Shown here piece by piece: positions 35,154 through 59,733 of a DNA stretch of 64,000 bases; position 1 is the stretch's first letter, and each line of letters begins with the position of its first letter. The position numbers were made by a program, and so were the translations under genes. This DNA is from Pseudoscleropodium purum (Eukaryota > Streptophyta > Bryopsida > Hypnales > Brachytheciaceae): contig OZ017795.1 in NCBI GenBank assembly GCA_963969395.1, forward strand, positions 9,796,001 to 9,860,000, in the 5' to 3' direction. The notes under the pieces are model-generated. The model searched no databases and was not told the DNA's origin. It saw nothing but the letters and a program-made list of their open reading frames with translations.

Positions 35154-36081
35154 TTGACCCCTAAAGAACCAAGGCCTTTTTTTTGCCAAAAAAGACTCAA
35201 AACTGCCATTTTTATGGCAAAAGGTAAAAAAATTAATTAATTGTTTTTTTTCACATCTAACCATAGGATCTTACACCTAACTAGTATGAGAATGTGTGAA
35301 AAAAAATTCAGAATTTTTGACCACACAGATTGCATGATATCTAAGTCTAAAGTAGAAAAAACGAGTTTTTTAGTACATTGCGGGATTAGATTTTTTAACT
35401 TTGAACATTTTTAACTTTACTTTTTTTGCACAATAGCGTTTGGAGCTTTAAATCTTTGTGATACAAAATTGAGTTGAGAGTTTGGAAAAAATTTCAAAAT
35501 ATTCAAAAAAACTTAATTTTTATTCTTTAAAAAATTGCTAAGTAGAAGTAGGTACGAGATAGAAGGAAAATCTAAAATATTCATATTTCTAAAATGAAAT
35601 TAAAATTCACTAATCCCAATGGTGAGATTATTCTAGCAAGAAATATTGACCATGTGAAATTTTTATTTTTTGAAAAATTATAAAAATGGCATTCAAAAGT
35701 AAATCCTACAAGTTATTTTTCCATGAAGATGCTCTAATTGCCTGAAAAACAAGATTGTCCATAACTTTCTCATAAAAAAAATCCAAATGGAAAGAATCAA
35801 AGCTTCAAATGTGTACAAAAATATAATCTATGAGAAGAAAAAAATTTAAAATTTAAAATTTTGAAATTTTTTTGGTTGCTCCCTGTCCCCTATTTTGAGC
35901 TTATTTGGGCATAATTTTTGTATCCGAGCACCAATTGAAAAAAAATTATATTCCTATGAAGCTAATCAATTTTTCTATCTTAAAAATATGTTTCAAAAAA
36001 TAAGGAAAAAATTTCAGCCCGTAGGTACCTGCCCGAAATCCCATTTGTCCCCCAAAGGGACAATGGTCCTTTAGGGGTTAA
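35154..36081 (+). mobile_element. piggyBac-like MITE, family A, copy 2
   Basis: It begins TTGACCCCTAAAGAACC and ends GGTCCTTTAGGGGTTAA. It is 928 bp, aligned along its whole length with copy 1 and, in reverse, with copy 3. The first base quartet is TTGA rather than TTAA, a single change. Confidence 0.8.
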
Positions 36082-39000
36082 AATTGATTGTAAATTGAAT
36101 ATTTGTGATTTTCTCAAAAAAAAAGTTTCCTATACATTCAAAATGTTATGTTCTAATCATAATTTTTTTTGAAGATATTTATTTTAGCTTTTTATTTAAC
36201 TTGTTTTGAAGGATTAATTTTTGACAAAAAAACATTAGAAGAGTTTTGGGGGGTCCAGAAGCCTATTTTGGACCTGTTGCCCTACAGCTGTTTCCCATAG
36301 TGAGGGGAACAACCCATTGTTAGAATTTTGTTTTTCATAAAATTAAAAATAAAAAAAATAAAAATTGGGTCAATGATGTAGCAAAGGCTCAGCCATGTCA
36401 AACTGCTGCGCCGAACCTGTTTCCTACATTCACAAGCTGTGATAACTCACAGGTATCCAGAGGCCCCAAAAATCTTCTAATGTAATTTTTTGAAGCTACA
36501 CCTACTAATATCCTTTGAATTATAGAATATTTGAAAAATCATTAAAATTCTTTAGAATCTATATTGTACAAATGTTAAAGAACTAACACAAGAATGTTTA
36601 AAAAAAATTATGAATGAAAAAGTGCATTTTTGTATGCTTGGGACATATTTGTGTTGATCATACATTGTTCAAAATTTGAATGTTTGGTCTCGAAGGGATT
36701 ATAAATGAAACTCACGTGCCTATAGGGCAACCCAAAGGACAATAAAAAATCTCCTTCAAGTAAAATATGGATCTTTTTGCTTGCCCAAAGTTTGTACAAT
36801 AAGGGCATGCAAGAGTGAATTATAGTAAATAGTACATTGACATTCCAACCTAAATAAGATGCTTGGCAAGCCATATTCTCTATTGAAGTCATTCAAATAA
36901 ATTGAAACATTTCCAAAAATTACAAAAGCCATTTTTTGTTATTGATTCTCTCAAAACCAAGCACAAGGAGCTTGGCTTGTTGTATAAAGGTTAACTTCAT
37001 CCTTGAATCCATGTATTATTTTAGGAGCATTGCTGGATTAGATTCATGAATTAGGTCATTGCATTTTCTATAACATTTTGGCAAAATCTACCTTGGGATA
37101 CTATGAGTACTATGTAGTAGAACAATCTCATTTGTTGATTGGAAAAATCAATGGCTTTTGTATCATTGCAAGTACTATAAACTACTTGCAAGTACTAAAA
37201 TAATACTATGGTGAAAAAAAAAGACAAATTACCACATAAAATAAAAACAATGAAATGTAATTAATTAAAAATAAAAAATCATGATCCGAGAGAATTAAAA
37301 ATTGACCATTTGAGAGGACTTGATGGTGATCTCATTTCTCCAAAGAAATAAAGTTGACACTATCTTCAATGTTTAGAAGTACTTGTGCAAGGGAGTCCTA
37401 TTTGCGTGGACCTAGAGGACATGAAATAATATATTCATAGATGCTCTTTTGTAGGCATACACCCACCTAGTGTAGAAATAGATTACCAAAATTTCAACTT
37501 TAAATCATTCAATTTAGGTACTCTGAACGTATTGAAAACCTTCAAATCTCAAAATATGACAAGTTAACAAAATTGAATTTTAAATATAAAATTATTTGTT
37601 TTAAATTTAAAAAATAAGAGATTTGATTACCATCAAATTAAACATCTCTAATAGAAATTTCAAACTCTTAGGACTTGGGATTCAAAAGTTATATTGGAAA
37701 ACAACAATGTCACTTTGATTGTAACAAAAAATAGGACCAATGTTTTGCAATGACCTGATCATGTATGTGAATGTAAGTTAACGTCTTCCTATAACTAGGT
37801 TCCGTCTATTGTCAAATACTAGGGAGAATCACAATTACCCTAAAGTACATAATCAAATTGGTTGACAAAACATATGGTCGTGAAAGGCTGGTCAAGGAGA
37901 AAACCTAGGCAAACTCATTGACAAAAATCATATATGTCATAAATGCAAATTTAGAGATAATCAAACTTATTGAAGATGGATTCTTCAATTGCAACTCCCC
38001 CTATTGATTTAAGTACAATGCCAAAGAGATTATTTACATTGATTTGTCCCCTTAGTACACATTACCAAATAAACTTCTATATGGTTTTAACTTTTACAAG
38101 GGAAGAATATTTTTATCAATGATATTTGAGAGACTCTTCAACATTGAACAACATGAATACATATAAAATGGATAACAATATTCCTCCCTTGTAAAAAGTC
38201 ATAGCCATATGGAACTTCATTTTGTAATACTTACTAATAGAACAAATCACTATAGTTGCTAATGTCTTTCAAGAGTTCCAATGGTCTTTTATTACAAAAG
38301 AAATTTGAGACATATATTTGTTTTACTTCAAATGATATAAAAAAAAAGGACTTGTTAGAGGGTGGTGCTCCATTACGACACTATTTGGCATGTTTCAAGG
38401 AATATTATTAGTACCTTTTATTTATTCTATATGAGAAGAGCCTCTCTAAATTAATAGGACCTAGACTACTTGCCAACATTACCATAGGGAGGTTTATTGA
38501 TTTAGAGAGGTTCTAGGCATTCAAGAATTTGTACAAAGGAAGTTGACAAAGCTCTATAGGTGGCACATCTTCAAAAAAAGGACCTTGCCATGATGAAGAC
38601 GCTTGTTCAAAAGCCTAATTGAGTTTTTTTGGTCCTTGGTTGACTTTCATAGAGTGCTACCATTTATTATATTCCCCAAACTAAGACTGCTTGACCTTAT
38701 TACTTAAGAGAGGTTTATTGGCTTATAAAGTATTGATTAGGGAGGTTCTGTTTATATCAATATAGTAGATTTACAATTGAATAGTAAAAAAATTGCATTT
38801 AATTCAAAAAAATTAAACGATAAGTCTAACTAAATCCTTTTGAAAAATAGACAAATATAATAATAAAACAGGATTTTTAGAGAAAGAAGTTTCATTGAAA
38901 ATAGATTGAATGTCTTCCTTGTCTTTATTAAAAAGGAAAAGGGAAGGAAGGTGCTAGTACTTTAAAATGACACTTTATACTATTCTGCATACTTGTCACA
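36082..39000. other. AT-rich intergenic DNA
   Basis: No gene is supportable. Reading frames are short in all six frames and no further repeat relationship is obvious to the eye. Confidence 0.45.
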
Positions 39001-39230: not shown

Positions 39231-40211
39231 CACACTTATTATCTCACTTTCAGACCCCAGGTGGTACAATTAAAGAGGTTTGAGCATAGTGGAATACAGT
39301 ATACTCCAATTTTTTAAGAAAGGCATTGTACCTCATCATGAATGGAATCAATGGTATTGTAATGGAATTTTTCATTTTTTTTTTTTCATTTACTGGCTCG
39401 GGGGGGCAGGCTTACAGGAGAGGTTAACAAGAGCTAAGCTATATCCACAGTAGGAGGAGGAAGTGTGAGGAGGTTTGACTAGGAATGTAGGACCTTCCCT
39501 TCCTCGAAAAGCAAACCATTGCTAAGTTTCAAGGTCAGCCAGAGCCCCCTCCTGGCTTGCGTGTCGGCTTGTTTTTGAGATCGATCGATCGCTTCAACTT
39601 ATTCCACCGCGATCGATGGGTAACTTCACTTAGCCTGTTACAGAGCATAAAATTCCATCCGACGCCAGTCACTTTGCTCAATCAGTCGTCCTGAACTTCA
39701 TCTCTGAAAACGGCCTGAAATTCTGGATTTCTGGGCATGCATCTAGCTAGTGCAGCCTCACCAACTGGTCTCAATTCCTGTAAATTCCTGTCGACTGTCA
39801 AAGCTTGCCTCGCACAGTCGCACTCCATTCCGTCCTGCAACATCCAGCTCATGGAACTTATTATTAACTTAATTACTTGAAGCTAGGTAGATGGAGTGGA
39901 AGACTTTAGAATAGATAGGCGCGACGGACGCAGCTAGCGCGCACTGGTCCGGTCGCACTCTGCAGGAGGGAATGCGGCGCTTGGAATACTGATTGAGCCC
40001 ACTGTTTCCCCCTCTGGTCTAATCACATGCGTGACGGACGGAGGGCAAAGAAATGGTAGGCCGTATGTTGGCGCGCACAGCAATGTCGAATTAACAAGCA
40101 CTCTGACTGATGCCAGACTCAGAGGAGACACTTCTGCACCAGAAACTGAAACGAAGACCAGTGAGTTTTTTTATCATTGGGGAGAAGGAGCCAGTTGGTT
40201 CCTCAATAGTT
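39231..40211. other. Intergenic sequence with a GC-balanced unique block
   Basis: From about 39,400 the sequence is unique and more GC-balanced, including a GATC-tetramer run near 39,580. No reading frame is convincing. It could hold a non-coding transcript or regulatory DNA, but nothing proves that. Confidence 0.35.
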
Positions 40212-40414
40212 ACTCGTGTGATACTCGTGTGATACCCTTGAGATATTCATGTGATACTCATGTGATACCCTTGAGATACTCGTGTGATACCCTTGTGATA
40301 TTCATGTGATACTTGTGTGATACCCTTGAGATACTCGTGTGATACTCATGTACTACTCGTATGATACTCATGTGATACTTGTGTGATACTCGTGTGATAC
40401 TTGTGTGATACTTG
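40212..40414 (+). repeat. 11-bp tandem repeat array (ACTCGTGTGAT-type)
   Basis: About 18 units of the type ACTCGTGTGAT, with variants ACTCATGTGAT, ACTTGTGTGAT and the composite ACCCTTGAGAT, follow each other without spacers. A diverged relative with GATACTTGGGTGATACTTGG lies at 63,266-63,295. The preceding flanks also match: TTTTTTTATCATT, then GGAGAAG and AGCCA. Confidence 0.88.
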
Positions 40415-41043
40415 ATGACACCTATATTTCTAAATAAGATGTTACCTAGGTAAAATTTGACTACTAATCTTTAAAAAATAGCAATAACCTAGTGTTTATT
40501 TTGAAGATATTGACCTTGAATTTAGAAATTGACCTTTATTTATTTATTAGCTATTAGCTTCCATCAAAAAATCATACCAAGAAAGTTGAAACATTGTTCT
40601 TCTTGCCCCAATCCTATTTGAGGCAATTTTAAGAGTTTACCATCATAGTAGTGGAATGAAGTTTACCACTTAGTACATGGTATTATAGAAAATCTTTACT
40701 CTCCAAAAGGTCATTTGACTTTGATGAGCAGTACAAATACAAGAAATGAAAATAAATAAATAAATTTGAATTTAAAAAACATTGCAATCTGATGTGACAC
40801 TTGAGGCAATTACGTGTTATATGATTTTAATTTTTAAAATACATTTTTCACTTTTTGTTGTAATTTGCTTTGTTGGTGAAAGTTATTGAATAGTCTTCTT
40901 GAAACTTCAAATGTTTTCTAATATAATGATTCAATTGAGATTCATAGTAAATTTTGTTGCATTTCCTCCATGAATCCATGCTAAACTTTTCAAACTCCTT
41001 ATAAAACTCTTTACAATATTAATTCTATAATTTTCTTTCCTCT
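40415..41043. other. AT-rich intergenic DNA
   Basis: Only A/T-rich sequence without reading frames. The first 120 bases resemble the sequence after the related array at 63.3 kb (both carry CCTAAATAA/CTAAATAAGAT and AAATNTGNCTA words). Confidence 0.4.
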
Positions 41044-41968
41044 TTAACTCGTAAAGGACCATTGTCCCTTCAGGGGACAAATGGGATTTTGGGGAGGTAC
41101 CTATAGGCTGAAATTTTTCCTTATTTTTTGAAACTTTTTTTGAAGATAGAAAAATTGATTATTTTGATGGGAATATAACTTTTTTTTTCAATCGGTGCCT
41201 AGAAATAAAAGTTATGCCCAAATAAGTTCAAAACAGGGGACCGGGGGGCAGCAAAAAAAATTCAAAATTTTTAATTTTTAATTTTCCTCATAGATCAAAT
41301 TTTTGTATACATGGAAAACTTTGAATCATGACATTTGGATTTTTTATGAGAAAGTTATGGACAATCTTGTTTTGGGGGCAATTATAGCATCTTCTTGAAA
41401 AAATAACTTGTAGGATTCATTTTTGAATTCAATTTTTATAATTTTTCTAAAAACAAAGTTCCATATGGTTTATCTTACTTGATAGAACAATCTCTCTATT
41501 AGAATTAGTCCATTTTAATTCCATTTTAGAGATATTAATAATTTAGATTTTCCTTCTATCTCATACCTACTTCTACTTAACAATTTTTTAAAGAATAAAA
41601 ATTAAGTTTTTTTGAACTATTATATTTTTCCCCTAGACTCTCAACTCAATTCTATACCAAAAATATTTAAAGCTCAAAACTTTGTAGTGCAAAAAATTAA
41701 AGTTAAAAATGTTCAAAGTCAAAAAATCTAGTCATGCAATGTATTGAAAAACTTGTTTTTTCTACTTTAAACGTAGATATCTTGCAATCTATGAGTGGTC
41801 AAAAATTCTGAAATTTCTTCCACACATTCTTATACTAGTTAGATGTAAGATCCTATGGTTAGATGTGGAAAAAAAAACAATTAAAATTTTTTTTTACCTT
41901 TTGCTATAGAAATGGTAGTTTTGAGTGTTTCTTGGGCAGAAAAAAGATCTTAGACCTTTACAAGTTAA
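41044..41968 (-). mobile_element. piggyBac-like MITE, family A, copy 3 (reverse orientation)
   Basis: The interval begins TTAACTCGTAAAGGACCATT and ends with TTAA at 41,965-41,968. Reverse-complemented, it follows copies 1 and 2 in order, for example AGTATAAGAATGTGTG and ATCATGATTCAAAG-like words. It is 925 bp and non-coding. Confidence 0.78.
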
Positions 41969-43470
41969 CTAATTGGCGATTTCATCTTAATTATTTTCAA
42001 AAAATGGAACAACTTGGCATCATTATCCAATTCTTCTTCAAATTTTTCCTTACAGTTTGGTTTTCCCAATTATTTTTGTTGGTGCTTTTAGTCATTTCAA
42101 TGCCTTAGAAACAATGACGTGGCAGGGACGACCGAGACCCACTTGCTGTTTGGGGATGTTCTTGGTTCCTGCTCCAAAGTTCTTTCAAAAGACTTGAAAC
42201 AAACACAAGCCTTCCAAGCCTTCCAAGTGGACCTTCTCTCTAGTCCGGGACTCCGCGTCTTCCACTTCCATGCACAGATGTCTTCCACCAGTTGAGCCAT
42301 TATTCAGTGCCTCAAATTCATGTTGGGATTCCGGCCCTGGAGGTGAGTCAGGTGACAGCAAGGTACAAAGGATTCCGCCGATACCATGCTCAGTCCGCCC
42401 GGCCTTTCCAAGTGCATCCTGAAAAGGCAACGAGCAACAGGACTGGCTTCTCCTTCGTAGCAAAATCAGTGAATTCGCCTTGAACCGCTTCAACAATCCC
42501 AGGCACCGCTTCAACAATCCACTTTAGAAGTATAGAATCTCACCGCCCAAATGCAAAAAACAACACCCGGCCTGTCCAGCTGCACAGGCTACACTACGCT
42601 ACTTCGAACAGTATTATTGCAGTCAGTAGTCCTTGTTGTAGACTGGACGACGGATGTATCAATGTTTTATATACTTATTCAATTCGGTTCGAGCTCCTAG
42701 CTCACTGGCCCCACTTCGGCCTCGGGAGTCAAGCCCGGAGAGATCTACAGTGCAGTATAGTATCCTAGCTTATCAAGGGCTTTGCTTGATTCCTTCACTG
42801 CATTGGCCGTCGTCCAGCTTATTGAAGGCGCGTCCTTTACAGAATTTGGTGCAAGACTTCACCTTTTCTTAGTTTTAACTTAATGGTCCTCGATCACTGG
42901 CTTCTCCGACCAGCCAGGGATGGACGAAATTTTCAATAACATTTGGATTCGTTTTGATCGTGGTCGGCTTGCTATCAGCTATTCGATCCTACTGCAACAG
43001 AGTATCCCTACCACGCCGCGTCACGGCAGTTGCTGTAGACAGGAATTGAGGGTTTGAGATATGTGGAGACGAAGTCCGTCACTTGCATGCAAGGATCAGA
43101 GTTTTGGAGGATTATGGTGCGCATATTTATGCTTCAGTGTAGGGATGGTAGGTAGTCTGGATAGATGGACGAGTTCCAAATTTGGTAGTTGGACTTGAAG
43201 CAGGTGATGAGAACGGGGCGATCGGTAGCACTGTTTAGTTCATCTTGCGAGCAGGTTGTAGTGGTTAGCTTGTGGGATACTTTTCGTGGTGCAGATGCGC
43301 CTGTGCAGCGAATGTTTCGATCCATGGCAATTGTAGAGGTATCATGTCTGCACTCACTGGTGGGGATGATTCAGATTCGAGACCATTGGAATGACGCAGC
43401 AAGGACTGTGATTGTTCCACGGTCTGGAAGAAACTGAGATTTGATCAGACGGGGAGTGAATGCAAGTGGA
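41969..43470 (+). promoter_or_regulatory. Upstream region of the receptor kinase, with a possible uORF
   Basis: This is GC-balanced unique sequence. It contains an ATG-initiated frame of 76 codons at 43207-43437 that ends 33 bp before the receptor-kinase ATG. If transcription starts upstream of 43,207 this would be a uORF. Minus-strand frames across 42.1-42.5 kb show no motifs and are not called. Confidence 0.35.
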
Positions 43471-46400
43471 ATGGCAGAAGCTATGGCGACTCGCCGCAGC
43501 TGCAAATTCGTCAAGAATTTGTGCGCTGGGAGTGCTACAGCGTCGAAATTGGGCATGATTCAGGTGTCGGTGGCCGTGATTGCGATGATTTTGAGCGTGG
43601 TGACAGCCGATCCAGCGTCGGACAAGGCAGTGCTGACCTCCTTCAAAGCGGGAATCACCAACAGCGACGTCCTGGGCTGGACCGCGGCCGACCCCTGCTC
43701 GTGGACAGGGCCTTCCCCTGCGCCCGGGGTGCAATGCGACAGTGCGGGGAACGTGGAGTGGCTTCGCGTCCGCGAACTCGGTCTCACTGGGACCGTCACG
43801 CCCTCTCTCAACCAGCTCACGAGCCTCACTTACCTCGAGATTAACCTCAACAACTTCACGGGCGCAATGCCCTCGCTCGCAGGCCTGTCCAAGCTCACCC
43901 AAGCGAATCTCGGCAACAACGACTTCACGTCGATCCCCGCAGATTTCTTCGACGGATTGAGCAGCATCCAGGGACTTTTCGTCAACGACAACCCGAATCT
44001 CAACCTTTCTTCTGGCGGATGGACGTTACCCGCGGCTATGACAGGCGCCGCCACCACGCTCACCGTGCTTTACATGAACAACGTCGGCGCGACGGGCGCG
44101 GTGCCGGCCTACTTCGGCACCATGCCCGCGTTGAAGACCTTGCGGATGGGGTACAACAGCTTCAGCGGGGAGGTGCCCGAGTCGTTTGCAAGCTCAGGGA
44201 TCCAGGAGCTTCGGTTGAACAATCAAGCGGCGGGGGGATTCTCGGGTAGTATCAAGTTTATTGGGACGATGACGGGGTTGACGCTTCTCTACTTGCATGG
44301 TAACTCGTTCACGGGGTCGGTCCCGGATGGAATTACAAGCGCGGTGGGGTTAACCGATTTGAGGTTAAGTGGGAACCAGCTGGTGGGGCGGCTGCCACCC
44401 GGGTTGTCGAGCTTGAAAGCGTTGCAGTATTTGTGGTTGGGGGATGGGAACAAGTTCTGTGGGGAGCTTCCGGTGTTGCCGGCTGAAAGTACTATCGACG
44501 CGACCACGTTCTGCGCAGCAGCCGGAGTGGCGTGCTCTGCGCCAGTGAATGCGCTTCTGGATTTTTTGGCTGGGGTGGGGTATCCACAAGCGATCGCCAC
44601 GGTGTGGGTTGGTGGGGATCCGTGTTCATGGACGGGCATTGCCTGCAACGCCGCGACGGGCGAAGTCACGTCGATTTTGCTGAATAAGGCTAGTTTAACG
44701 GGGACTATTTCCCCATCCCTTGCGAATCTGACGTCGCTGGAGACGCTGAGCTTGTCGGGAAACGCGCTCACGGGCGTCATTCCTGCAGAGCTCACGGGAA
44801 TCACAACGTTGAAAACGGTGGACGTGAGTTTCAACAACCTCTCCCCGCCGCTACCGTCGTTTCCTGCTTCAGTGACATTCACGTACACTGGAAACGCCCT
44901 TCTGACGGGAACTCCCGCGCCAGCTACGTCTCCCACCACGCCTGCTACTCCGCCAACCACGGCCCCCGCTCCAGTGTTGACGCCCCCTGCGCCTGCGTCG
45001 CCTCCAGTCGCGACGCCACCAGGGACGGCACCATCGTCAATTGTGCCCGTTTCGCCGGGTCCTACAACCGTTGTAGCGCCAGTGCCTTCATTGACTGCAC
45101 CTCCACCTGGAATCCAGCCTCCCGGAAGCAGCCCTGCGCCGACGATACTGAATTCGTCGAAGGAAAGTAGTAGCATCCTTCCAGCTGTTCTGGGAGGAGC
45201 TGTTGGGGGAGTTGTTTTGTGTGCGATTTTCCTTGTGCTCCTTTGCTGCTACAAGCGAAAGATTGCGCGCAGGAACGCCGAAACGAAGAACCAGAATCGC
45301 TCGGAAGCGCTCTCTGGTACTACTAATGCCGCATCGCCGGATGTGGTGAATGTTGTTGTTCATAACAGCAGCAGCAGCAATGGGACATATAACCCTGACT
45401 CCCCGGTATGTGATTAAACCCTAATCCTCTGGCACTAAGGAATTTTCTGGATGCGGTAATTTGCAATAACTTTAACCCGTATACTACAAAGTCTTGTGTT
45501 CGAAGCATACGTATCCCTGACAGAAGAGGATAAATTATAACCCATATTCCTTCTCCTAATTCTAAGTTCCATTAGTACAGATGTGGGCTTAATAAAGTAG
45601 AAACGACTTGGCATTATGTCCGACTATGCTCTTAAACTTCCCAGGTGTCAAACAACATCGACGACCTTATCCCATAACAGTTTGGTGTCGGTATGGAAAC
45701 ATGTAGACCAGAAGTTGAAATATCAATGGTCTTAAGTTACAGTTCATGCTTCTTGACATTTCGCTTGAAGCATTATATTATATACTGTGTCTCATCAGCT
45801 CTTACATAGCTCGTTAGTGAAATGTGATAGTAAGTTTCTCAGGTTGTTAGCGTCTGCCATGTTGTCAATTTCCCTCGATGCATGTTGAGTACCGGGAGTT
45901 TATGGAATTCGGGCTACGAAAGAAAAGAGTGCACTTGAATTGTATCCAACGACGTGAACGGTGCCTGTTTGCAGGGCTCGGGGTCTTGGAACATGACGTA
46001 CACCATCGGCGAGCTTCGATCAGTCACCAGCAACTTCGCGGAGCGCAACATCCTGGGCCGGGGTGGCTTCGGCGTGGTGTACAAAGGCATCCTTCCGGAC
46101 GGCACCAAGATCGCGGTGAAGCGGATGGAGGCCGCCGTGGTGTGCAGCAAGGGCCTGAGCGAGTTCCAATCCGAGATCGAGGTCCTGACCAAAGTGAAGC
46201 ACCGCAACTTGGTGGGGCTGCTGGGCTACTGCACGGATGGGATTGAGCGGCTGTTGGTGTACGAGTACATGTCGCAGGGCACGCTGTCGCAGCACTTGTT
46301 CAAGCACCAGGAGATGCAGGTGAAGCCGCTGTCGTGGAAGCAGCGGCTGACTATCGCGCTCGACGTTGCCCAGGCTGTGGAATATCTGCATGGGCTGGCG

Positions 46401-47702
46401 CATCGGAGCTTCATTCACCGAGATCTGAAGCCCAGCAATGTGCTTTTGAACGACGACTTTAGAGCGAAGGTCTCGGATTTCGGGCTTGTGAAGCTGGCGC
46501 CGGAGGGGAATTTGCATTCGGTGGAAACAAGACTCGCGGGGACCTTTGGGTACCTTGCTCCAGAGTACGCGGGTAAGTGCACGAGGCCAAATGCGATTTT
46601 TCGGTATTTATTTTGGTTTCTTAAGCACATTCGGTAACCAAGTCGCAGCCGGAATCAGTAAGTAATTCGGAACTGTTTGCACTTGAAATTTCAAACCGAG
46701 ATTTCGTGCTCAAATTTCAGTAAGTGTTTTGTTGAGTGATATCTCGTTGGAAGATTACTGAAACTACGCTCCTAAGTCTGAAGTATTGAAGCACAATAAG
46801 CAGTCGAAGATGCTCAGAGAATATGGCAGCAGCGAAGTAATAAGAACTTCATTTTGTTGAGATTTTCTTTGCTCATTTATAGGTCAGATCATGTAAAGGG
46901 TCGCTTGTTTGAACGCTCTGAAAAATGCGCCTTTAACATTTTGTAGCAACTGGTCTGATTCAAATCGTGGCGACCGAATGAAATCGTTTATGTTTCAGAT
47001 TGTACAATTGGTATCTTGTTGGAAAGCTTCGTTCGATACGCTTTTCAGAAACCATTTCCCATGTTCTGATTCTCTGTATTGAAACTGTAGCAACCGATTG
47101 AAGTTTGCTTTCCAGATTAACCCTAATTCGAGCACCTCGACAATTCTGATTGTCGGTGGGGTTTTTGCGTGGTCGCAGTGACGGGCCGTGTGACAACAAA
47201 AGCGGACGTGTTCAGCTTTGGCGTGGTGTTGATGGAGCTTCTGACCGGTCGCCGCGCGGTAGACGAAACGCAGGAGGAGGAAGACATTTACCTGGTCTCT
47301 TGGTTCACGAACAAGCTCCGAGGCAAGTCGGAGTCTCTTCTTCGGGACTCCCTGGACCCCAACCTTCTCTCTTCCGACCTCGATGACAAAGCCACGTTCA
47401 AGAGCATCGCCACGGTGGCGGAGCTCGCGGGCCACTGCACCGCAAGGGAGCCCTCACAGCGTCCCGACATGGGCCACGCGGTGAGCGTGCTACGGCCGCT
47501 GGTGGACGAGTGGAAGCCCCAGGAAGCGTTCAACATGGACTACAGTGGTAGCACGCGCGATATGTCGCTGTCGAAAGCCTTGAAGCAGTGGCAGGAGTTT
47601 CGGGACGACTCCGCGTCGGCCGCGACGGATAACAGTGCCACGAGTTTACCGACGCGGCCTGGCGGATTTGCGGATTCCTTCACATCTGCAGATGGACGGT
47701 GA
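43471..47702 (+). CDS. TMK-type leucine-rich-repeat receptor-like kinase
   Basis: Three coding exons join in phase: 43471-45405, 45975-46572 and 47179-47702, giving 1,018 residues. The first ATG in the frame is used. A signal-anchor-like stretch follows it, at about residues 29-46. The ectodomain has two blocks of leucine-rich repeats, each opened by a DPCSWTG cap and separated by a Cys-containing non-LRR island. This is the arrangement typical of TMK receptors. A Pro/Thr-rich juxtamembrane region precedes the membrane helix (about 569-594). The kinase has the Gly loop [12 protein letters not shown] (672-683), K694, HRD (D795), DFG (D813) and [11 protein letters not shown], so it should be active. 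Plant TMKs act at the plasma membrane in auxin-linked growth signalling; that role here is inferred from family. An Arg/Ser-rich tail follows the kinase. Confidence 0.94.
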
Positions 47703-49693: not shown

Positions 49694-49701
49694 GTCAGAA
49701 G
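49694..49701. repeat. Target-site duplication, left copy (GTCAGAAG)
   Basis: The same 8 bp lies immediately outside the right end at 59726-59733. Eight base pairs is the duplication length of hAT transposases. Confidence 0.92.
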
Positions 49702-49711
49702 TAGGGTTGAC
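49702..49711 (+). repeat. Left terminal inverted repeat of the hAT element
   Basis: TAGGGTTGAC pairs with the right terminus except for the first base. Beyond it both ends share ACGTCCG, AGTGTCCG and GCAGCG in the same order, counting inward. Confidence 0.9.
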
Positions 49712-49712
49712 A

Positions 49713-49870
49713 CGACGTCCGGACGCGGACGTTGTGTTTGCAGTGTCCGCTGACATTCGCGGTCTCCGCAGATGCAGCGTTCGTCGGGACCGCCCCGTCC
49801 GTCCGCCCCATCCGCTTTGACGGCCCTATTTCCCCCGACCGCCCTACCCAAACTGCCCTGCGGTCACTCC
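49713..49870. repeat. Left subterminal GTCCG-rich block
   Basis: Many copies of GTCCG or CGGAC in either orientation give a CpG-dense block in an AT-rich setting. Clustered short subterminal motifs are where hAT transposases such as Ac bind, so these are candidate binding sites (inference). Confidence 0.7.
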
Positions 49871-50256
49871 CTTCATCTTTAAACAATTAAATGTTAAATG
49901 AAGTGCAATGGTTCGCTTAAAACAATGTCTCTTATAAGTTGAAAGATTATAAAGTTTGACCATGAGTCCATGATAGTCTTGAAACTATAAAAAAATTCCA
50001 ATTCATTTTCAGAAGGCAAACTAAAAAAGTTTGTGACTTTAAATATATATATATATATACTATTTAAAAAATCGAGATCAACACAAATACAAACATAATC
50101 AATATGGGCAAAATGTATTGAATTTAATATAGAATACCATACATTGTGCACATTTGGCTAATTGCACATATAATTTTTTTCATTCCAACTCTATATTTCT
50201 AAACTAATTTTTAATGCCTATACAACCTATTCAACTACTACTTCTGCACTACCAAT

Positions 50257-51753
50257 CTAATATAAATGGCGGAAATGTTCATCTGGCATCGGCCAACGAT
50301 ATGTATTAGAAAATCGCGTAATCACATGGGCCAAACTAGTATTTTCATCGTCAGTTTTCGAAGAAATGCACTTCAAGTAAGCATAAAACACTTTTGCAAA
50401 GTCATGAAAGGCAAATTGTGTCGCACTAGGTGTTTTTCGTAGCACGTTGAAATACGCCTCTGACATGTTGTTTTCATTCATCCGCCGAGCAATTTTTCGA
50501 ATGGCATACTCTTTCGACTTACGTGAATACATCGGAATGACTTCCACATTTGCACCTGCTTTATGCAAATATGCAATACGTGGATCCACCCACCATCTCC
50601 TCTGCAAAGTCTGTTTCATCTCATCTGCTGATGTGAATGTGTACAAAGACTTCATTGGCTGAGAAGCTAAGGTGGTCATGCCCCAATCGCAAACTCCAAT
50701 ATATACACGTGACTCATCCTCTGGAAAATGCAACAAGATGTTGTCCGGAGAAAGATCATTGTGCAAATGTCCAGCAAGATGCACTGCATACATTATATGC
50801 ATAAACGCCCATGTCAACTCCGTGCGCTTCTTCCGATATCGTCCTAAATGGTGAGCTTTTACAACCTCCTCTTCGGTTGGATTCGTATACATCAAACGGA
50901 TTTGAATGTTGTTTGGAAAGTCCTTATCCATATTCAACATTTGTCGAAGAGTCCCACCATTCCACCAATACGCATAACCTTCACACGTCGTTCCATGCAC
51001 CGCAGCAAACCGTATCACACCTTCGTGTGAAATTCGAATAGCCATTGATTCGTTTTGATGTTCTAGCTTTGCAAGATCGGGTCGAGTTTGGTGGTGAATG
51101 GATTTCTTTGCCGCAAACTCCCAATAAGGAAGTATTCTTGGGCATCCTTCAATACGAACTTTTCGAATCGTTGCATATCCACCTCTCATCGTTCTATCAT
51201 CAACAGCAATCACGCGTGCTGTATCTGGAAGTGCTATTAGGTACCGTTTGGTCCTTTCCGCTTCAGCAATTCCATCATTGCTTTTCCACCAACCAATTGA
51301 ACCAACTCGATTGTGTGTTTTGGCGAATGGAGCACATCGCCCCCTAAACAAGTCCGCTTTCAAAATCACTTCTTCAAACTGGGCGTCATTGGGTCGATAT
51401 TCCTTGCCATATTTAACCAAAATGATTTTGGAATTCCACAAAGCGTCATGAACCTTGTTCTCCAAACATTTGGTGAAGTACGTCTTATGCATTTCGTCAT
51501 GCCACTTTGTCACGTTCAATGCATCCAACAACATCTGTGTCATGTCTACCTTGAATTTAGACACGCACTCCTCTTGATATCTAATGTATTTATTGTCTAA
51601 AGACAATGTTGTTTCCGATTCATAAAATTGAACGATGCGCTCAATCATGAATTTTTTGCATTCCTCCGAAGGACTTTGGCGAGCTACCTCTAAGTTTGAT
51701 GGTCCCTCTCCATGTTTAAGCTTCGCAACCTTCTTCTTCCCCTTCATCATCAT
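50257..51753 (-). CDS. Transposon-borne protein-kinase-like protein
   Basis: An intronless 498-codon frame starts at the ATG at 51753-51751 and ends at TAG. It has no internal stops. An N-terminal region of about 180 residues, Lys-rich at the start, precedes a kinase fold. The fold shows a Gly-loop-like RGGYATIRKV (190-199), the lysine pair of FAAKKS (216-217), and a catalytic loop HNDLSPDNIL (D333, N338) in place of HRD. A metal-binding CDWG (D356) stands in place of DFG. No clear APE motif is seen. Catalytic residues are retained, so activity on a protein or small molecule is plausible. The gene runs divergently from the transposase, with a GC-rich block directly upstream. I cannot assign it to a named kinase family. 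Uninterrupted coding beside a broken transposase suggests selection or recent acquisition. Confidence 0.85.
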   Translation of the reverse strand: MMMKGKKKVAKLKHGEGPSNLEVARQSPSEECKKFMIERIVQFYESETTLSLDNKYIRYQEECVSKFKVDMTQMLLDALNVTKWHDEMHKTYFTKCLENKVHDALWNSKIILVKYGKEYRPNDAQFEEVILKADLFRGRCAPFAKTHNRVGSIGWWKSNDGIAEAERTKRYLIALPDTARVIAVDDRTMRGGYATIRKVRIEGCPRILPYWEFAAKKSIHHQTRPDLAKLEHQNESMAIRISHEGVIRFAAVHGTTCEGYAYWWNGGTLRQMLNMDKDFPNNIQIRLMYTNPTEEEVVKAHHLGRYRKKRTELTWAFMHIMYAVHLAGHLHNDLSPDNILLHFPEDESRVYIGVCDWGMTTLASQPMKSLYTFTSADEMKQTLQRRWWVDPRIAYLHKAGANVEVIPMYSRKSKEYAIRKIARRMNENNMSEAYFNVLRKTPSATQFAFHDFAKVFYAYLKCISSKTDDENTSLAHVITRFSNTYRWPMPDEHFRHLY

Positions 51754-51947
51754 GACAAATGAAACTGATATAGATGAAATTTTCTAATTTAAAATTGAAT
51801 TCACGCGCAAGTGTTCAAAAAATTGGCAATAAGGAGGCCCCAATAAACTACTCTTGTCTTGCTTAGGAAAGGAGCCAATGGAGGATGAACCACCAAGCTC
51901 TCCGCTCCACCTTGCATTCACAAGGGGCAAAGCAAAAGTAACAATGC

Positions 51948-52460
51948 GGACGGCCCGTCCGCCCCATCGGACGGCCTTAAACCGTCCGCCCGATCGGACG
52001 GGCCAGGGGTGGCGGACGAATCGGCCGTCTGCCTCCTCGAAACCCTAGAGCCCCGTCCGCCCAATCGGACGGCCACGGGCGGACAAATCTGGCGTCCGCC
52101 CGATCAGACGGTCCGGGGGGGCGGACGGGTATCGGGGCGGACGCCGGATCGGACGGACAGGGCAGACGGAGGACAGGGCGGGCGAGTATCAGGGCGGACG
52201 CCGGATCGGACAGACAGGGCGGACGGAGGACAGGGCGGACGATTATCGGGGCAGACATGGTAGACGCCGGATCCGACGGACAGGGCAGACGGAGGATAGG
52301 GCAGACGGGTATCGGGACGAACGGGGCGGACAGGGCGGACGCCGGATCGGACGGACAAGGCGGACGGAGGACGGGGCGGACGGGTATCGGGGCAGATGGG
52401 GTCTGGGCGGACGGGGGTCTGGGCGGATGGGGTGGACGGGTATGAGGGCGGACGGGGCAG
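51948..52460. repeat. Internal GTCCG-rich block upstream of the kinase gene
   Basis: This CpG-dense block is mostly G-rich on the plus strand and is packed with GGCGGACGG-like words. It lies between the kinase ATG and the AT-rich core. Telobox-like motifs AAACCCTA (52,040) and ACCCTAAACCC (52,476) sit within and beside it. It may act as promoter and/or transposase-binding DNA. Confidence 0.75.
52129..52420 (+). repeat. Minisatellite, about 57-bp units (four to five copies)
   Basis: Units start with GTATCGGGGCGGACG and continue with CCGGATCGGACGGACA and GGACAGGGCGGACG. The first two units are 57 bp; later ones carry 9-18 bp insertions. The Pro/Arg-rich minus-strand frame across it is a by-product of the repeat. 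Confidence 0.85.
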
Positions 52461-52911
52461 TTTGATTCTAAAGCGACCCTAAACCCATATTTTGCACGAT
52501 AAACAGAGGTCTTCATGGCACGGTATAGTTCAACTAACTTTTCATTCATTCAATGTAAAATTTGAAATTAAAAAAGGTAGCCTTCCTTCATGACCAAATT
52601 TATGAATTCTTGGTAAATGATATTTTTGTATAAAGATATGAGCTAAAATGTGCAAAAATTCACGAAAGGATTGCGACGTTTAATATATATACAGAAATAT
52701 TCACGTTGCATTGTGTATAAAGCAATTGTAAGAAGGTAGTTGAATAAAAATTCTACTATTAAATTGAATTAGTTGACGTCTAATCACTTAGTAAACCGCT
52801 AAATGTTCAAATCCTTGCAAGTGTGTTTTGGCTATCGAAAAAGAGCATGGACTTATAGTTATCCCCAATGAAGCAAATTGTTTTTTTTTCAAAATCTAAC
52901 GGTATAGATGT

Positions 52912-53110
52912 TTAGCCCCTAAAGTTCTTTTCACTAAAAACACTTCAAAACTGCCATTAGTAGTGCAAATACCAAGTCTTGGAAGAAAAATACTTTTGGG
53001 CAAATGTAACCGTAGGATCTTGTAGTAAATTAGTTGGAAAAGATGTGGAAAAAATTTTAGACAAATCCACCATTTGGATTGTAAGATATTAGATATTGAA
53101 TGTTTCATTT
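52912..53110 (+). mobile_element. Truncated family A piggyBac-like MITE inside the hAT element
   Basis: It begins TTAGCCCCTAAAGTTC and continues with CTTCAAAACTGCCATT and GTAGGATCTTGTA, parallel to the first 200 bp of copies 1 and 2. The rest is missing or too diverged to follow. Confidence 0.55.
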
Positions 53111-53320
53111 AAGGGGGCTACTCAATTATGTCTATTAATGAACAATTGGTAGGCTAACAAACCTAACTTAGCATGCATTTTAATATTTGTTGCAATTGTT
53201 TTAGGAATATTATAACATAATACTATTATAATATTCTTATAAATGATATAGTACTAAATCATTTCAAAATCAACAACATTTGAACATAATCTGTCAATCT
53301 TGTCTTCCATACTCCTTTAA

Positions 53321-53322
<2 letters not shown>

Positions 53323-53370
<48 letters not shown>
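53323..53370 (+). repeat. (AT)24 microsatellite
   Basis: An uninterrupted AT dinucleotide run of 48 bp. A shorter (AT)n run lies near 50,045-50,060. Confidence 0.97.
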
Positions 53371-53378
<8 letters not shown>

Positions 53379-55284
53379 TTAGATAAATCAACATGACAAA
53401 TCAATGATTATATATTTCATAAATCTATTCTTCATCAATCAAATAAGAGTGCATGTTCAAATATAGACAAAGATGGTTTCTCCATTTGTTCCCAAAAATT
53501 AAATAAACAAATAGAGAAAGATATGAACTGAATGTTACTTGGAGAATTGAAGGGAAAGAAATTGAAGTACTCAATTGCATTTTATTAAATTGGAAAATTG
53601 CATGTGGATGGCATGAATTAATCTTCATAGATGCTAAACTCATACGAGTTGCATTTCAACATTTATGATTTATGCAATTGATTGAATTGAAAGCTCTTGT
53701 AATTACATTTTCAAATTTTCGATTCAATCATTCAAATTTGCAAGAGTGATTTACGATAGATTTATAACTTTAAATGTGAAAGCATTGAATGCCTTTATGC
53801 GTTTATTCATCAATATATTAATTTTAAATAAATAATATATATTTTTTATAACATATGCATAAACCATTGCATTAAAAAAAAAAAAAAACTAAGAGCCAAG
53901 CCAAATAGGTTGGTCAAATGAAGTGAACAAGAGAACAAGAGCCCTACGAGAAAGCAAAGGAAAAAAAAAATATCAAAAGGATTGAAAGGAAGGAGCAAGA
54001 TGCATTCTTGCAAGACCGTAGAATACATAATGTGATAATGATTTCAAAATCCAAACACAAATATATTTTCTATTTCAATGAGAGTCAAAAATGAATTCCC
54101 CTGCTCTCAAAGATTGTACAATGTACACGTTATACAAAACGAACATATAACAGAAAGAGTAGAAGACATCGTTTATCATGATTGAAAACTGAAATGATTT
54201 TTTCTTTCTATGTAGAATATTTTATGAAATGTAACAATGTATTTAATTATCATAGTAATTGGTAGAAATCTTTGTGCAATATATAGAAACATTTCATTCA
54301 TGCGGAATTTTTTCATTTATTTAGGATTAAAATTGAAGTATTATACTCTACAAAGTACAAACCGAAAACAATATCATATACCTAAGTTCAAAAGTTTGCA
54401 ATTGTTTCGTGAATTCATTTTGAAAACTCAAACAAAGAAATATTTTATAATCAATATCTTGTTCATTTGAATCATTTCAAAATTCGAATTCCGAATTCAA
54501 TTCCTATTTATAATAGAAATTATGTTTGTCAATTTTTTAGATCTTTAAACAATGAACCCTCTTTTTTTTTAAATTAATATTTAAAAATATCTGAAATAAG
54601 AATATTGGAATTACCCTTCAAAATAAATATAGCACATGTATAAGTGTATAATGTATTCTACTCAATCAACTCAAGTAACGAATTTTTCTATGTTTTTAAG
54701 GAAAAATATAGCCATACATGATTTGAAAGTTAAAACATTGATTCTTTTTCTTTATTTTCAAATCTAATCAAAATTTCATTAAAAAATATGAAAGACTCGA
54801 TGTTCATTTGAAGATGGTGATGCACTTCTAATTAGAAAACACAACCTTTCATTAAATATCATGAGGTTGAAATCCATTAAACTGTTATTCTAATTATGTA
54901 TTGGGGCCTTTTTTTAAAATTTCATTTGCTTACGATGAAAAAGGAATTGATTATTTCTGCAAAACATTTGATTTCCTAATGAACTTTAAAAGAATCCCCA
55001 CCATCTTTAGATCTTCTCAAAACCTATTTAGAAGGATAATATGAGTAAATAATCCAAACATATTCAACTTAACCACATTCCCCTCATTCGTAAAACAATT
55101 TAGGGGAGAAAAGAAAAGGTTTAGGGTAATTAGGGTATAGGGTTTAGGATTTACATTTTTTTTTAAAAAAAATGATAAATCAATTACATTGATCCTCATT
55201 TAGCAGTGATTATTAGGCTGTTTTTTTTTGGAAATGTTACCGCTCTTTTTGAGTAATATCGGCCTCATAGGATGCTCCAATGGA

Positions 55285-55505
55285 CAACTAGGCGGACGCC
55301 GTCGGCGGTCAGTGTTTAAGTGGGGCGGTCGGCGTGTCCAAAGCGCGGACGGCATCGGAAGTTGGACAGTGCGGACAGTCCCATCCGACCACCCCGTCCG
55401 ACCACCCCGTCTGCCGCGTCTGACCGCCCGTCCGACCCATCCGTCCGACCCATCTGGCCTGTCCGCCCCGCCCACCCGTCCGCTTCAGCCCCGTCCGGGC
55501 CATTG
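55285..55505. repeat. Internal GTCCG-rich block upstream of the transposase
   Basis: A CpG-dense block with many CCGTCCGACC and CCCATCCGTCC words, mostly C-rich on the plus strand, so it is opposite in strand bias to the block upstream of the kinase. A telobox AAACCCTAAA follows at 55,521-55,530, about 280 bp before the transposase ATG. Confidence 0.72.
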
Positions 55506-55812
55506 CTTGTTTTTGAACAGAAACCCTAAAAATGAACCTTTAATTTTCTGGAGGGGACTATAAATGTTAGAAGAGAAGCTTTGGTATTCACTCTCGAAAA
55601 ACCGAATGCTAAGATTTCCAAGGGCTATGAGCTTCAATTTATTGAGTCTCTTGCTTGATAATGCATAGTTCGGTGGACGGGGGGGCTTTGATTTTCAAAG
55701 CTTTGTGTAACTAATTTCATTGATATTGTATACATTGTCACGTTGTGGGTTTCAAATTTAAAACATTTTATTGGTTTCTTTTGAAATTGAGGTAAAACAT
55801 ACATTTGTCAAT

Positions 55813-58800
55813 ATGGTGGCCAAACCAACGGGGGATTTTTCTCCTTGGTTTAGTGTGCAAGAGGGTGGTAAAGTAAAATGTAGGCTTTGCAAAGCGAGCA
55901 TGTCAAAGAAGTTCAGCCGTATGTTCAGCCACTTAGGCTATTCTGGGCTTGGAGGTGTACATGATAAAGAGGTGAGCCTTTGTCCACGATTATCAATGGC
56001 AGTTCGAGATTTATTTCGGCATTGCGAAGGAGTTTTTCCAAAATGCGTTGTAATGGACAATGTGGATGGCAACCGTGGCCCTTCAGATGTTCAAGAGTTT
56101 TTGGCCGGAAAGGCTGTGTCGCATTCTGACCATGAAGATTCTTGTCCAGCGTCCAAAGAATTGGTATCAATGGTATGTGCCACAACTGAAATGACTTTGA
56201 GTACGGAAGCTTCTAGTGAACGTGAAACCCCGAGGGCATCAAGTTCTAGGCCTCAGAGGCAAGGCAGCTTAGTGAATGGGTTTGAAGAAGGTGATAGACG
56301 CAAATTACATTCAGTGTGGGCAAATTTTTTTTATTCGGCAAACATACCATTTTCCATGGCTCGAAATTCAACTTTTAAAGAAGCAGTGAAGAAAACGGTT
56401 GCATTTGGTAGGCCATACATTCCTCCTTCATACCACGACCTTCGGTACAAATTGTTGAATGAGGCGAAGACCAACATTCAAACACAGTTGAATGCACGGA
56501 CCGAAGATAGCATTTGAAAATTTGGAGCAACATTGTCCATTGATGGATGGAGCTCTGTGACTAATCGACCTCTCATCAATGCCATGCTTGTATCATCTGT
56601 AGGTGAAGAATTTCTTGGATTTGTGGATACAAGTGGTTGTGAAAAAAATGCGGAGTACTTGGCAGCTGTGTTGGAAAAGTTCATTGAACAAGTGGGGTCT
56701 AAGAACGTCGTGTTAATAACTACGGATAATGCTCCCGTGAATCCGTCCGTATGGGATGTAATATCTGCAAAATATCCTCATATTTTTTACCAAGGGTGCG
56801 TGGTACATGCATTGAATTTGTTGTTGAAAGATTGGGCTGCACAGAAATGGATTGCTTCCAAATTGGATAAAGGAGTTCTTGTAGCTAAATTTATCAGAAA
56901 GAGACATATGCCGCTAGCTCTATTGCGAAAGTATTCGCCAAATCTTGGTCTCTTGATGCTTGGAGATACAAGGTTCGCCTCTAAATTTATCATGATGGAG
57001 CGTTTGACAAAATTGAGAGGAGCATTGGAACAAACGGTGGTAGATCCGCAATGGATTGAGTATGTACATACTCTTAAGAAGAAACGTGGAGCGAAAGTCC
57101 AACCAAAAGACTTGGCCTTAGCGGTGAAGAAAATTGTTTTTGATGACCATTTTTGGAATCGGTCCATCAATCATGTGGAGATGGTTGAACCAATCATATG
57201 TGCACTCCGCGATTTGGATACAAAATCACCATGTATGGGGAAGGTGTTGCATATCATGAGGAAGTTAGAAAAGCACGTGAACGGATTACAAAGTCCACCA
57301 TTTTGTTTGCTAGAAAAACTTGCAATTCCATAGGTACAGTCTTTTTATGCCCGAAAAAGAATGGTGGACAATGATCTCCAATCAGCCGCAGCTCTTTTGA
57401 ATCCATACCTTCTTCATGACAAAGAATTAGCGGGTGACACAAATGCAATGTCAGGATGTAAGAAAGTTTTGGAGAGAATATGTAAACCGGATGAATATGC
57501 AGCAGTGGTGAAGGAATTTGTAGCTTTTCGACACAAGGAACCTCCATTCCACAATATGTTGAATCCAGGAGATCAAATGTTGTCCGCACATGCTTGGTGG
57601 GATTTTGAAGGTGCATATGGCAAGTTTATAGCTCCATTAGCGAAGAGGATATTGGCTCAACCGGTGTCATCATCTTCATGTGAACGGAATTGGAGCAACT
57701 ATTCTTTTATTCACAACAAATCTCGAAATAAATTGAAGCTGGAGAGAGCAGCGGATTTGGTGTACGTGTATACCAATTCCAAAGTATTAAACGCATCGAA
57801 GGAAAAAGATGAAAAAAAATGGTATAATGATAATGTGGATCCGATGGAATCAGAGGATTCAGATAGGTCGACGTTAGAAGACGATGATGACGATGATGAT
57901 GATGAGGATTTGGAAAGGGCCCTTTCAACTGTAGATGGCGGAGATAACTTCAATCGTGCGACAGCATGGGGAGATGAAGACGTTATGGAAGGCTTTTCCG
58001 ATTTGGTGAATGATACGCATGATTATCATCTAAACCGCAAGGATGTCGTTCCCGACAATGCAAACGATGCATATACCTTTTGTGAAGACGAGGACAATGT
58101 AGGGGGAGAGGAGAATCTACCTTCTTTAGCTGCATATTGCAATAGAACGGGATACTTGAATAGCGAAAACATTCTATCGGAAAAGGCAAACGCTATTGCC
58201 AAAGAGGTGAAAATCAATGAGAATGCTATTGGTGATGATGGGAGAAATGAAGAAGTTCTAATTTCTCAATCTCCATCTGTGGCATTAAATGTAGTGCAAG
58301 GAAACGACAAAAGAGAAGATGCGGTCATGGAGGTGGACGTTCCAAAAGATGTGGGCAACAATAGTGGTGATGAGGGGGAACCAAATATTGCGGTACAGAA
58401 AAATAATGATTCACTTGGGATGGCAGTCACAAATTCGACAATTGTGAAGAGTGATAAAGGAAAAGAGCTAATGAAGTCAATTTTTGAAGTACCGAGATCT
58501 AGTGCTCTTCCACCAATACCGTTGAAGTCTATTAGCACACGATTGAATGATTCTCAGAGCTTTGGATATGGAAAACGCCTAATGAACATTTCCAAAGAAA
58601 TTTCTACAGGCGGTAATATACGGAAAGTAGCATCATCACTTACAAGCCTAAGTGATACGGATAGTGATCGGATGTCATTGGCATCTTTGCGTGCTCGCAT
58701 TTTAAGAAAAGGAATGGCGCAAGAACCCATCAAATCAACAAACGGCACTCTATTACTTCAAAAGAAAGCCAAAGTGGAGATAATCGTTCATGGACATGTC

Positions 58801-58998
58801 GACCCTACATCAAGATTGATGGTTCAAGAATCGAGTAACGTGAAAGCGAAAAGAGAAATGCAACCTTTTTCTATCTCTCCAGTGAAGAATAGGACCCCTC
58901 TTGATGAAAATGTTGCTACTTTGTCAAATAGAAAGAAAAGAAAGGTTCCTATTCAAAAAGCCTTTAATCGTTCTGTCAAAGTAAAAAAGAAAAATTAA
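55813..58998 (+). pseudogene. hAT transposase (BED finger, DUF659, hAT dimerisation) with two in-frame stops
   Basis: From the first in-frame ATG at 55813, one frame runs 1,061 codons to the TAA at 58996-58998. It is broken only by TGA at 56515-56517 and TAG at 57331-57333. The N-terminus has a BED-like finger (C23, C26, H40 or H50, C57). The middle has DUF659 features: SIDGWSS, then GFVDTSG, TTDNAPVN and CVVHALNLLLKDW, the DDE-type catalytic region. After the second stop come ALLNPYL and the C-terminal SSSCERNWSNY and RNKLKLERAADLVYV of the hAT dimerisation domain. A long acidic, low-complexity tail ends in KRKKR-like basic clusters, a likely nuclear signal. Each stop is one transition from a sense codon. 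The protein would cut and rejoin the element's ends, but this copy should be inactive unless the stops are bypassed or are sequencing errors. Confidence 0.9.
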
Positions 58999-59162
58999 AT
59001 TCGAAAGAAGGGAGTAAACCTACTTCGAGAGAAGACTTGAAGGAGACAACAATACTTGATTCCAACAATGAAGATGACTTCGATAATGAAGATTTTGAAC
59101 GGAGAGCTGCAGGAGAGAGTAGTGGGGTTGAGGTTAGAGGAAATGTGGATTGGCGTCCATAG
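58998..59162 (+). other. Possible frameshifted C-terminal extension of the transposase
   Basis: Directly after the transposase stop, another frame stays open for 54 codons. It encodes an acidic tail (NNEDDFDNEDFERR) ending GNVDWRP then TAG. The switch lies in an A-rich run, where a one- or two-base indel or an unseen intron would join the frames. It resembles the acidic tail before it, but may be chance. Confidence 0.35.
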
Positions 59163-59511
59163 GAATTGTGGAGATGTGAATTTAGATGTTTGATTGTTTA
59201 GTTGCTCATGATATATGGAGCTCATGTTGACAAATGACAATGGTTTCTTCAATCATTTTATTATAAAATTGTTTGTTTATTGATGATATACATCTCGTTG
59301 GATTTTAAAGTGATTTTGTTTCTAAATCAAAATGAAATTCAACAAAAAAAATTAAAAATATATTTCATATTTTAGCTTTTACATAAATAGTGATATACAA
59401 CTCTATTGAATCGCAATTGCAATATAAGAAAAATTAAAATCAAAATGACTTCACTCTCAATCTCTCATTGGTGAAAACAATCAAAACCCTAAACCCAAAA
59501 CGGGTTTTCTA

Positions 59512-59707
59512 AGCCGCCCTGTCCGCCCTGCCTCGCCCGTCTGCCCCGCCCGTCCACCGCGCCCGTCCGCCCCGTCCGTCTGCCAATCTGCCCCGTCAGC
59601 CCGCCCCGCCCCGCGCGTCCGCCTTCCGATGGCGGGAAGGACGCTGCGTCCGCTAGCGTCTGTGCGTCCGGACATCCGGAAAACGGACACTATTTTGGGG
59701 CGGACGT
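59512..59707. repeat. Right subterminal GTCCG-rich block
   Basis: A CpG-dense block of CCGCCC(T/C)GTCCGCC words, preceded by AAAACCCTAAACCC at 59,483-59,496 and followed by GGGGCGGACG next to the terminus. It mirrors the left block. Confidence 0.72.
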
Positions 59708-59715
59708 AGAGATTC

Positions 59716-59725
59716 GTCAACCCTG
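59716..59725 (-). repeat. Right terminal inverted repeat of the hAT element
   Basis: GTCAACCCTG on the plus strand is the complement of the left end except for the outermost base. Confidence 0.9.
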
Positions 59726-59733
59726 GTCAGAAG
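59726..59733. repeat. Target-site duplication, right copy (GTCAGAAG)
   Basis: It is identical to 49694-49701. A G precedes it on both sides, so a 9-bp match exists, but 8 bp leaves the Ac-like T/C end pair. Confidence 0.92.

Follow-up and report, generated by a model that had tools for sequence, protein, structure and literature searches.

Transposable elements of the hAT superfamily are taken to need the transposase alone, and Ac encodes a transposase only. MULE elements such as VANDAL21 carry in addition the anti-silencing gene VANC, which acts in trans. We analysed a stretch of 64,000 nucleotides from the moss Pseudoscleropodium purum (contig OZ017795.1, positions 9,796,001 to 9,860,000 of the forward strand; the window), in which the original prediction, made from the letters alone, had placed a complete hAT transposon carrying a protein-kinase-like gene next to its transposase. 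The element is a member of a high-copy family with at least 86 kinase places in this genome, and its new feature is a kinase as the standard second gene of an hAT element.

The element spans positions 49702-59725 of the window and both of its ends are exact, as had been predicted. It has YAGGGTTGAC termini, and the 8-bp sequence GTCAGAAG is duplicated on the left (49694-49701) and on the right (59726-59733). The left terminal inverted repeat TAGGGTTGAC (49702-49711, plus strand) reads CAGGGTTGAC in most copies, and the right repeat (59716-59725, minus strand) is CAGGGTTGAC when read inward. Within the 64-kb window, the 9-mer AGGGTTGAC occurs in exact form at the two ends of the element and nowhere else. 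With its 8-bp target-site duplication, its short terminal inverted repeats of the YAGGG type and a hAT dimerisation domain, the element belongs to the hAT superfamily.

The kinase-like gene is located on the minus strand at 50257-51753, within a stop-free frame of 508 codons (50257-51783), and is transcribed divergently from the transposase gene. It is open and encodes 498 amino acid residues, of which about 170 form a helical N-terminal part ahead of a two-lobed kinase fold. The fold matched FGFR2, IRAK4, BRAF and others, which shows a general kinase fold and no subfamily. The catalytic residues K216, E235, D333, N338 and D356 are conserved, DWG replaces DFG, and the catalytic loop reads HNDLSPDN with a serine where a lysine is usual. 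The gene was correctly described as intact and divergent. It had also been called catalytically plausible, and the predicted activity agrees with the conservation of these five residues, the last of them being the Asp of the DFG-type motif. A match to Pkinase at E <= 0.01 was found in 34 of the 35 aligned members of the kinase family, and a search of the kinase against NCBIfam gave sub-threshold kinase matches only.

The transposase gene (55813-59163, plus strand) encodes a DUF659 domain (PF04937; 87.2 bits, E 1.1e-24, Pfam cut-off 34.7), a C-terminal dimerisation domain (Dimer_Tnp_hAT, PF05699; 29.3 bits, E 7.3e-07, Pfam cut-off 21.4) and a long acidic tail. At the N-terminus, zf-BED matched weakly (E 0.083, 13.4 bits versus a cut-off of 20.6). 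In the window copy the gene is broken by two in-frame stops, TGA at 56515-56517 and TAG at 57331-57333, and by a frameshift near 58960-58998, where the conserved tail goes on in another frame. The transposon that had been called complete is complete in its ends and not in its transposase gene. The window copy cannot make its own transposase and, since the break, could have moved only with the transposase of another copy. The tails of the transposase relatives are long, acidic and poorly conserved, and many end in a SSGAEVKGDSDY-like motif.

Other copies were sought in the genome that contains the window (313 Mb, 52 contigs). The search with the kinase gave 1548 first-look candidates, of which 86 were scored, and the search for hAT matches gave 664 candidates with 150 scored. 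Identity to the window kinase was 93% or higher at all 86 scored kinase places and 93-96% at the 85 further ones. The 30 best-scoring of these 86 places, the window's included, were then read. A left terminus was present 453-880 bp behind the kinase stop in all 30, as exact AGGGTTGA in 28 and with one or two mismatches in the other 2, and a different 8-mer flanked each. A kinase found mainly as a host gene outside such termini had been named as the sign of a single capture; among these 30 loci no kinase was seen outside them. The mismatched (C/T) termini that had been noted in this element are not a trait of the family, as 27 of the 28 exact AGGGTTGA left ends begin with C and the window copy alone begins with T. 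A terminal T was also found at one end in two further copies among the kinase-transposase pairs.

Upstream of at least 22 of the 86 scored kinases lies a divergent hAT match, compared with 0.31 expected within 15 kb. The spacing was 5.44-5.87 kb in 21 of the 22, and the other kinase neighbours among the hAT matches were two on the same strand and none in convergent orientation. Both end regions were examined for 20 of the 22 pairs, with six left ends taken from the kinase search of the genome. Eighteen of the 20 pairs had both termini, giving elements of 9,496-9,978 bp, and the target-site duplications were perfect in 12 pairs and had one or two mismatches in 3. The 12 partner transposases that were read showed 95-96% DNA identity to the window transposase. 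The search for copies with the same termini, which had been proposed as a check, thus found the kinase in most copies examined. A single capture event does not account for the kinase: the 86 scored kinase places are at least 93% identical to that of the window, all 30 read have the left terminus and 18 of the 20 pairs are two-ended. In pairs 13, 15 and 18 (L052, L054, L057) the flanking 8-mers are unlike, which would fit a nested insertion or a recombination of two copies. Kinase copies of equal score also occur in opposite orientation about 5-20 kb apart (C49:6071587/6082279, C1:41126616/41146832 and C47:19231571/19236122), as local inverted duplicates or assembly artefacts.

The linkage was also analysed in reverse, starting from the transposases. 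Twenty hAT matches were drawn at random from 107 unpaired ones, which ranked below the 21 best-scoring. Fifteen belonged to the window family (92-96% DNA identity), and five, with 42-43% protein identity over 112 residues, to a sister family. For each of the 15 window-family transposases one 700-bp probe was placed where the kinase was predicted, and 11 of these probes hit it.

To compare the histories of the two genes, which had been suggested as a tree comparison, we correlated distance matrices instead of tree topologies. Among 13 copies the mean difference was 3.2% for the kinase and 3.5% for the transposase, and the matrices were correlated (Mantel r 0.70, p 0.0004), also when one of two near-identical copies was left out (r 0.50, p 0.032). 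Two near-identical copies on C1 (C1:2666020 and C1:2681123; L080, L081, L087, L088), with kinases 99.9% and transposases 99.8% identical, have the same four longest transposase frames and different perfect duplications. Most simply, the transposase gene was broken before the copy moved, and the transposase that moved it came from elsewhere; the alternative is conversion between copies.

The sister family also has a kinase. A sister element at C48:7704767-7721012 (16,246 bp) is bounded by CAGGGTTGTCAAA ends and flanked by a perfect duplication of TTGGAGCT. Its transposase, for which a 1174-residue open frame surrounds the dimerisation domain, is 36% identical to that of the window over 666 residues, and its kinase shares 26% identity with the window kinase over 390 residues. 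When three further sister copies were probed, one of them chosen by its hAT match and frame length only, the kinase was at the predicted place in all three, with 97-99% DNA identity. Between the sister kinase and transposase lies a RING-type gene, a minus-strand frame of 699 residues at C48:7711713-7713809 (L128:1533-3629). Its finger matched zf-RING_2 below the cut-off (E 4.9e-05) and RNF24 (E 0.0017). The RING-type gene was present at 4 of 6 other sister copies probed, two of these six having been chosen by hAT match and frame length only. A partial plus-strand frame of 192 residues, likewise located between the two genes of the sister element (L137), resembles the N-terminal part of the 699-residue protein.

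Protein searches gave 58 kinase relatives, or 74 with the alignment as the query, and 34 transposases, one of which is a distant fungal protein (E 1.2e-4). Ceratodon purpureus, a moss, was the one plant species named among the kinase relatives; it accounts for P0022 and for P0037, which falls in a cluster with 126 member sequences. In the viral contigs dataset neither the kinase nor the transposase had a match. Single-gene trees were calculated from 52 of the 75 kinase rows (at least 300 residues) and from the 34 transposase rows and were midpoint-drawn; they were not matched at the level of single tips, since there is no means of pairing the metagenome proteins. The outermost clades contained P0056-P0058 in the kinase tree and P0087, P0089 and P0090 in the transposase tree. 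Both proteins of the sister element are nearest to members of these clades, the kinase to P0057 (39%, among 74 compared) and the transposase to P0090 and P0089 (54%, among 34 compared). Kinase P0036 and transposase P0070 are both filed on contigs of 27639 bases (ena), which suggests a linkage in another source. P0002, which is 73% identical to the window kinase and filed under a Bacilli metagenome-assembled genome, is probably on a misbinned contig. The genome contigs dataset gave a single locus, a 40-residue match in a short frame on a bacterial contig; this frame, which we take to be SecE-like, was dropped.

Selection on the kinase was analysed in 30 copies, and the ratio of amino-acid changing to silent variants (N:S) was determined. 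For the single-copy C-to-T variants N:S was 135:60, as expected without selection (2.25). Variants common to at least 6 copies showed 10:15, compared with 173:79 for the single-copy variants (p 0.0068), and those common to at least 3 copies showed 45:39 (p 0.017). Over 435 kinase pairs the mean dN/dS was 0.37. We conclude that amino-acid changes are under-represented among the kinase variants shared by many copies. This pattern is consistent with a largely neutral decay after insertion and with constraint while the lineages were active, and since the 30 loci are the best matches to the window protein, a choice biased against amino-acid differences, it is supporting and not decisive.

In many independent insertions the kinase is located inside the ends of the transposase's element, shares the history of the transposase and has kept its catalytic residues, and it is also present in the sister family. 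Its occurrence in the family copies and in the sister family makes it probable that this hAT lineage has long had the kinase as a core gene. Taken together, we consider it likely that the window element represents a high-copy, two-gene hAT family whose kinase works in trans as a selected core gene. The transposase and the kinase would be transcribed apart between CAGGGTTGAC ends in a unit of about 9.5-10 kb that generates 8-bp duplications; the kinase would serve the element in trans and would be maintained by selection in active copies. The candidate substrate is a host protein that limits transposition, by silencing or repair. It is slightly preferred over the transposase of the element, whose long tail is acidic and rich in serine, because between the two families the kinase diverges more than the transposase (26% versus 36% identity) and because the sister family has the RING-type gene. 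Going further, we tentatively suggest that a moss hAT lineage with signalling genes, a kinase in both families and a RING-type gene in one, may disarm host control through the phosphorylation, and possibly the ubiquitination, of host proteins or of the transposase.

Several observations weigh against a selected kinase acting in trans. The window protein reached only 22.2 bits with Pfam Pkinase, below the cut-off of 31.7, and was filed as kinase-like because its fold and residues fit. Stops in frame were found at 53 of the 86 scored kinase places, 33 being stop-free, and the kinase of the C48 sister copy has two stops. None of the 12 partner transposases was open throughout, with 958 codons in the longest frame, so that no fully intact two-gene copy was seen. 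Three of the 20 pairs had both ends but unlike flanks, and two had no recognisable right end within the stretch read. The kinase was not at the expected place in 4 of the 15 probed family transposases, which speaks against its presence in every copy. In one of the four, the probed sequence was similar to the element's left end (67% over 227 bp), as a copy that lacks the kinase would be; spacer insertions may explain the remaining three. The other single-copy variants, with N:S 38:19 (2.00), fall below the 3.26 expected without selection, so the neutral baseline is imperfect. The copy counts were drawn from the best-scoring matches among those listed and are lower bounds.

Some of these points would also fit a host kinase that an ancestral element picked up on one occasion and that has since been copied along without benefit to the element, namely the 53 places with stops and the copy that may be without the kinase, to which the neutral look of the single-copy C-to-T variants can be added. 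Such a passenger is unlikely given the depletion of amino-acid changes in the shared variants (p 0.0068), the mean dN/dS of 0.37, the conserved catalytic residues and the retention of the kinase in the sister family, where the transposase is only 36% identical. Within the reading of a selected kinase, the enzyme may phosphorylate the transposase, for example in its acidic, serine-rich tail, and so time or activate transposition with no host targets. Divergent genes on one element would hold enzyme and substrate together, and the long acidic tails of the relatives with their SSGAEVKGDSDY-like ends are in line with this; as the kinase is more divergent than the transposase between the two families, we find this sub-case rather doubtful. 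The chance presence of a host gene or another repeat in or beside an hAT element had no observation in its favour, is contradicted by the linkage counts (30 of 30 left termini, at least 22 of 86 in pairs, 18 of 20 two-ended, 11 of 15 probed) and hardly deserves consideration.

The architecture of the element could also be read as a fusion, in which an hAT element around the kinase had merged with another around the transposase and the inner G+C-rich blocks were left as relics of the inner ends. G+C-rich arrays adjoin both gene starts and both element ends. The left subterminal stretch (49712-49870) contains CGGACG/GTCCG words and is a candidate transposase-binding region, a tandem array (51945-52460) lies directly upstream of the kinase start, a block at 55280-55500 lies upstream of the transposase, and the right subterminal stretch is at 59510-59700. 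Part of the inner block (55406-55483) partly resembles the right subterminal sequence at 59536-59622. There is no exact inner AGGGTTGAC terminus, and we regard such a fusion as improbable. As a view of origin it would leave the present unit unaffected, 18 of the 20 pairs sharing one pair of ends.

The divergent genes are separated by an A+T-rich spacer (52461-55280) with an (AT)n run at 53323-53379 and two short matches to other window repeats (52617-52672 and 52925-53061). The second of these resembles, with 69% over 141 columns, a dispersed repeat that has three copies in the window (25500-26400, 35160-36090 and 41030-41940), one of them inverted. A degenerate array of an 11-base, TACTCGTGTGA-like unit is found at 40178-40441. 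At a distance of 2 kb from the element, a leucine-rich-repeat receptor-kinase gene, which appears to be split into several exons, has its frames at 43438-47702 on the plus strand. This is an ordinary plant gene, and its kinase domain scores far above the Pfam cut-off, unlike that of the element kinase. Neither an Rfam family at gathering score nor a tRNA was found in the window.

If a kinase has been kept inside the ends at scores of independent insertions and in two deeply diverged families, DNA transposons would be able to carry their own post-translational control or counter-defence. The kinase family may explain a part of the metagenome proteins named 'hypothetical' or 'serine/threonine protein kinase', and moss protoplasts would be a tractable system for comparing kinase-plus with kinase-dead elements.

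No hAT element with a kinase gene was found in the titles and abstract openings listed for open-licence PubMed Central papers, in keeping with the original prediction, which knew of no described hAT system of this layout. The window family resembles Ac/Ds and other hAT elements in its 8-bp duplication, short YAGGG-type ends, hAT dimerisation domain and short subterminal repeats, and differs from Ac/Ds in having a divergent kinase as a regular second gene. VANDAL21 is likewise a DNA transposon of plants in which a second gene, VANC, accompanies the transposase and acts in trans for the element. It belongs to another superfamily, VANC is not a kinase, and its anti-silencing has been shown, whereas for the window family it is only conjectured. 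ToxhAT/ToxTA of wheat-pathogenic fungi is also a DNA transposon with cargo that was first called hAT (PMC12506042). It is reported to make 2-bp TA duplications, an assignment to Tc1/mariner and a new name have been proposed for it, and the word 'kinase' does not occur in the main text of that paper (PMC12506042). The kinase itself has a likeness to the FunK1 kinases of fungi, which form lineage-specific expansions, are similar to Pkinase mostly in the C-lobe and have a serine in place of the catalytic-loop lysine (PMC3203195). The window kinase shares the expansion, the C-lobe similarity and the loop serine (HNDLSPDN). Only 2 of the 35 aligned members of the kinase family matched Pkinase_fungal (PF17667), with a best E of 0.028 and filters that remove most matches above about 0.1. 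The available part of the FunK1 paper does not place these genes inside transposons (PMC3203195), whereas the window kinase is located inside hAT ends.

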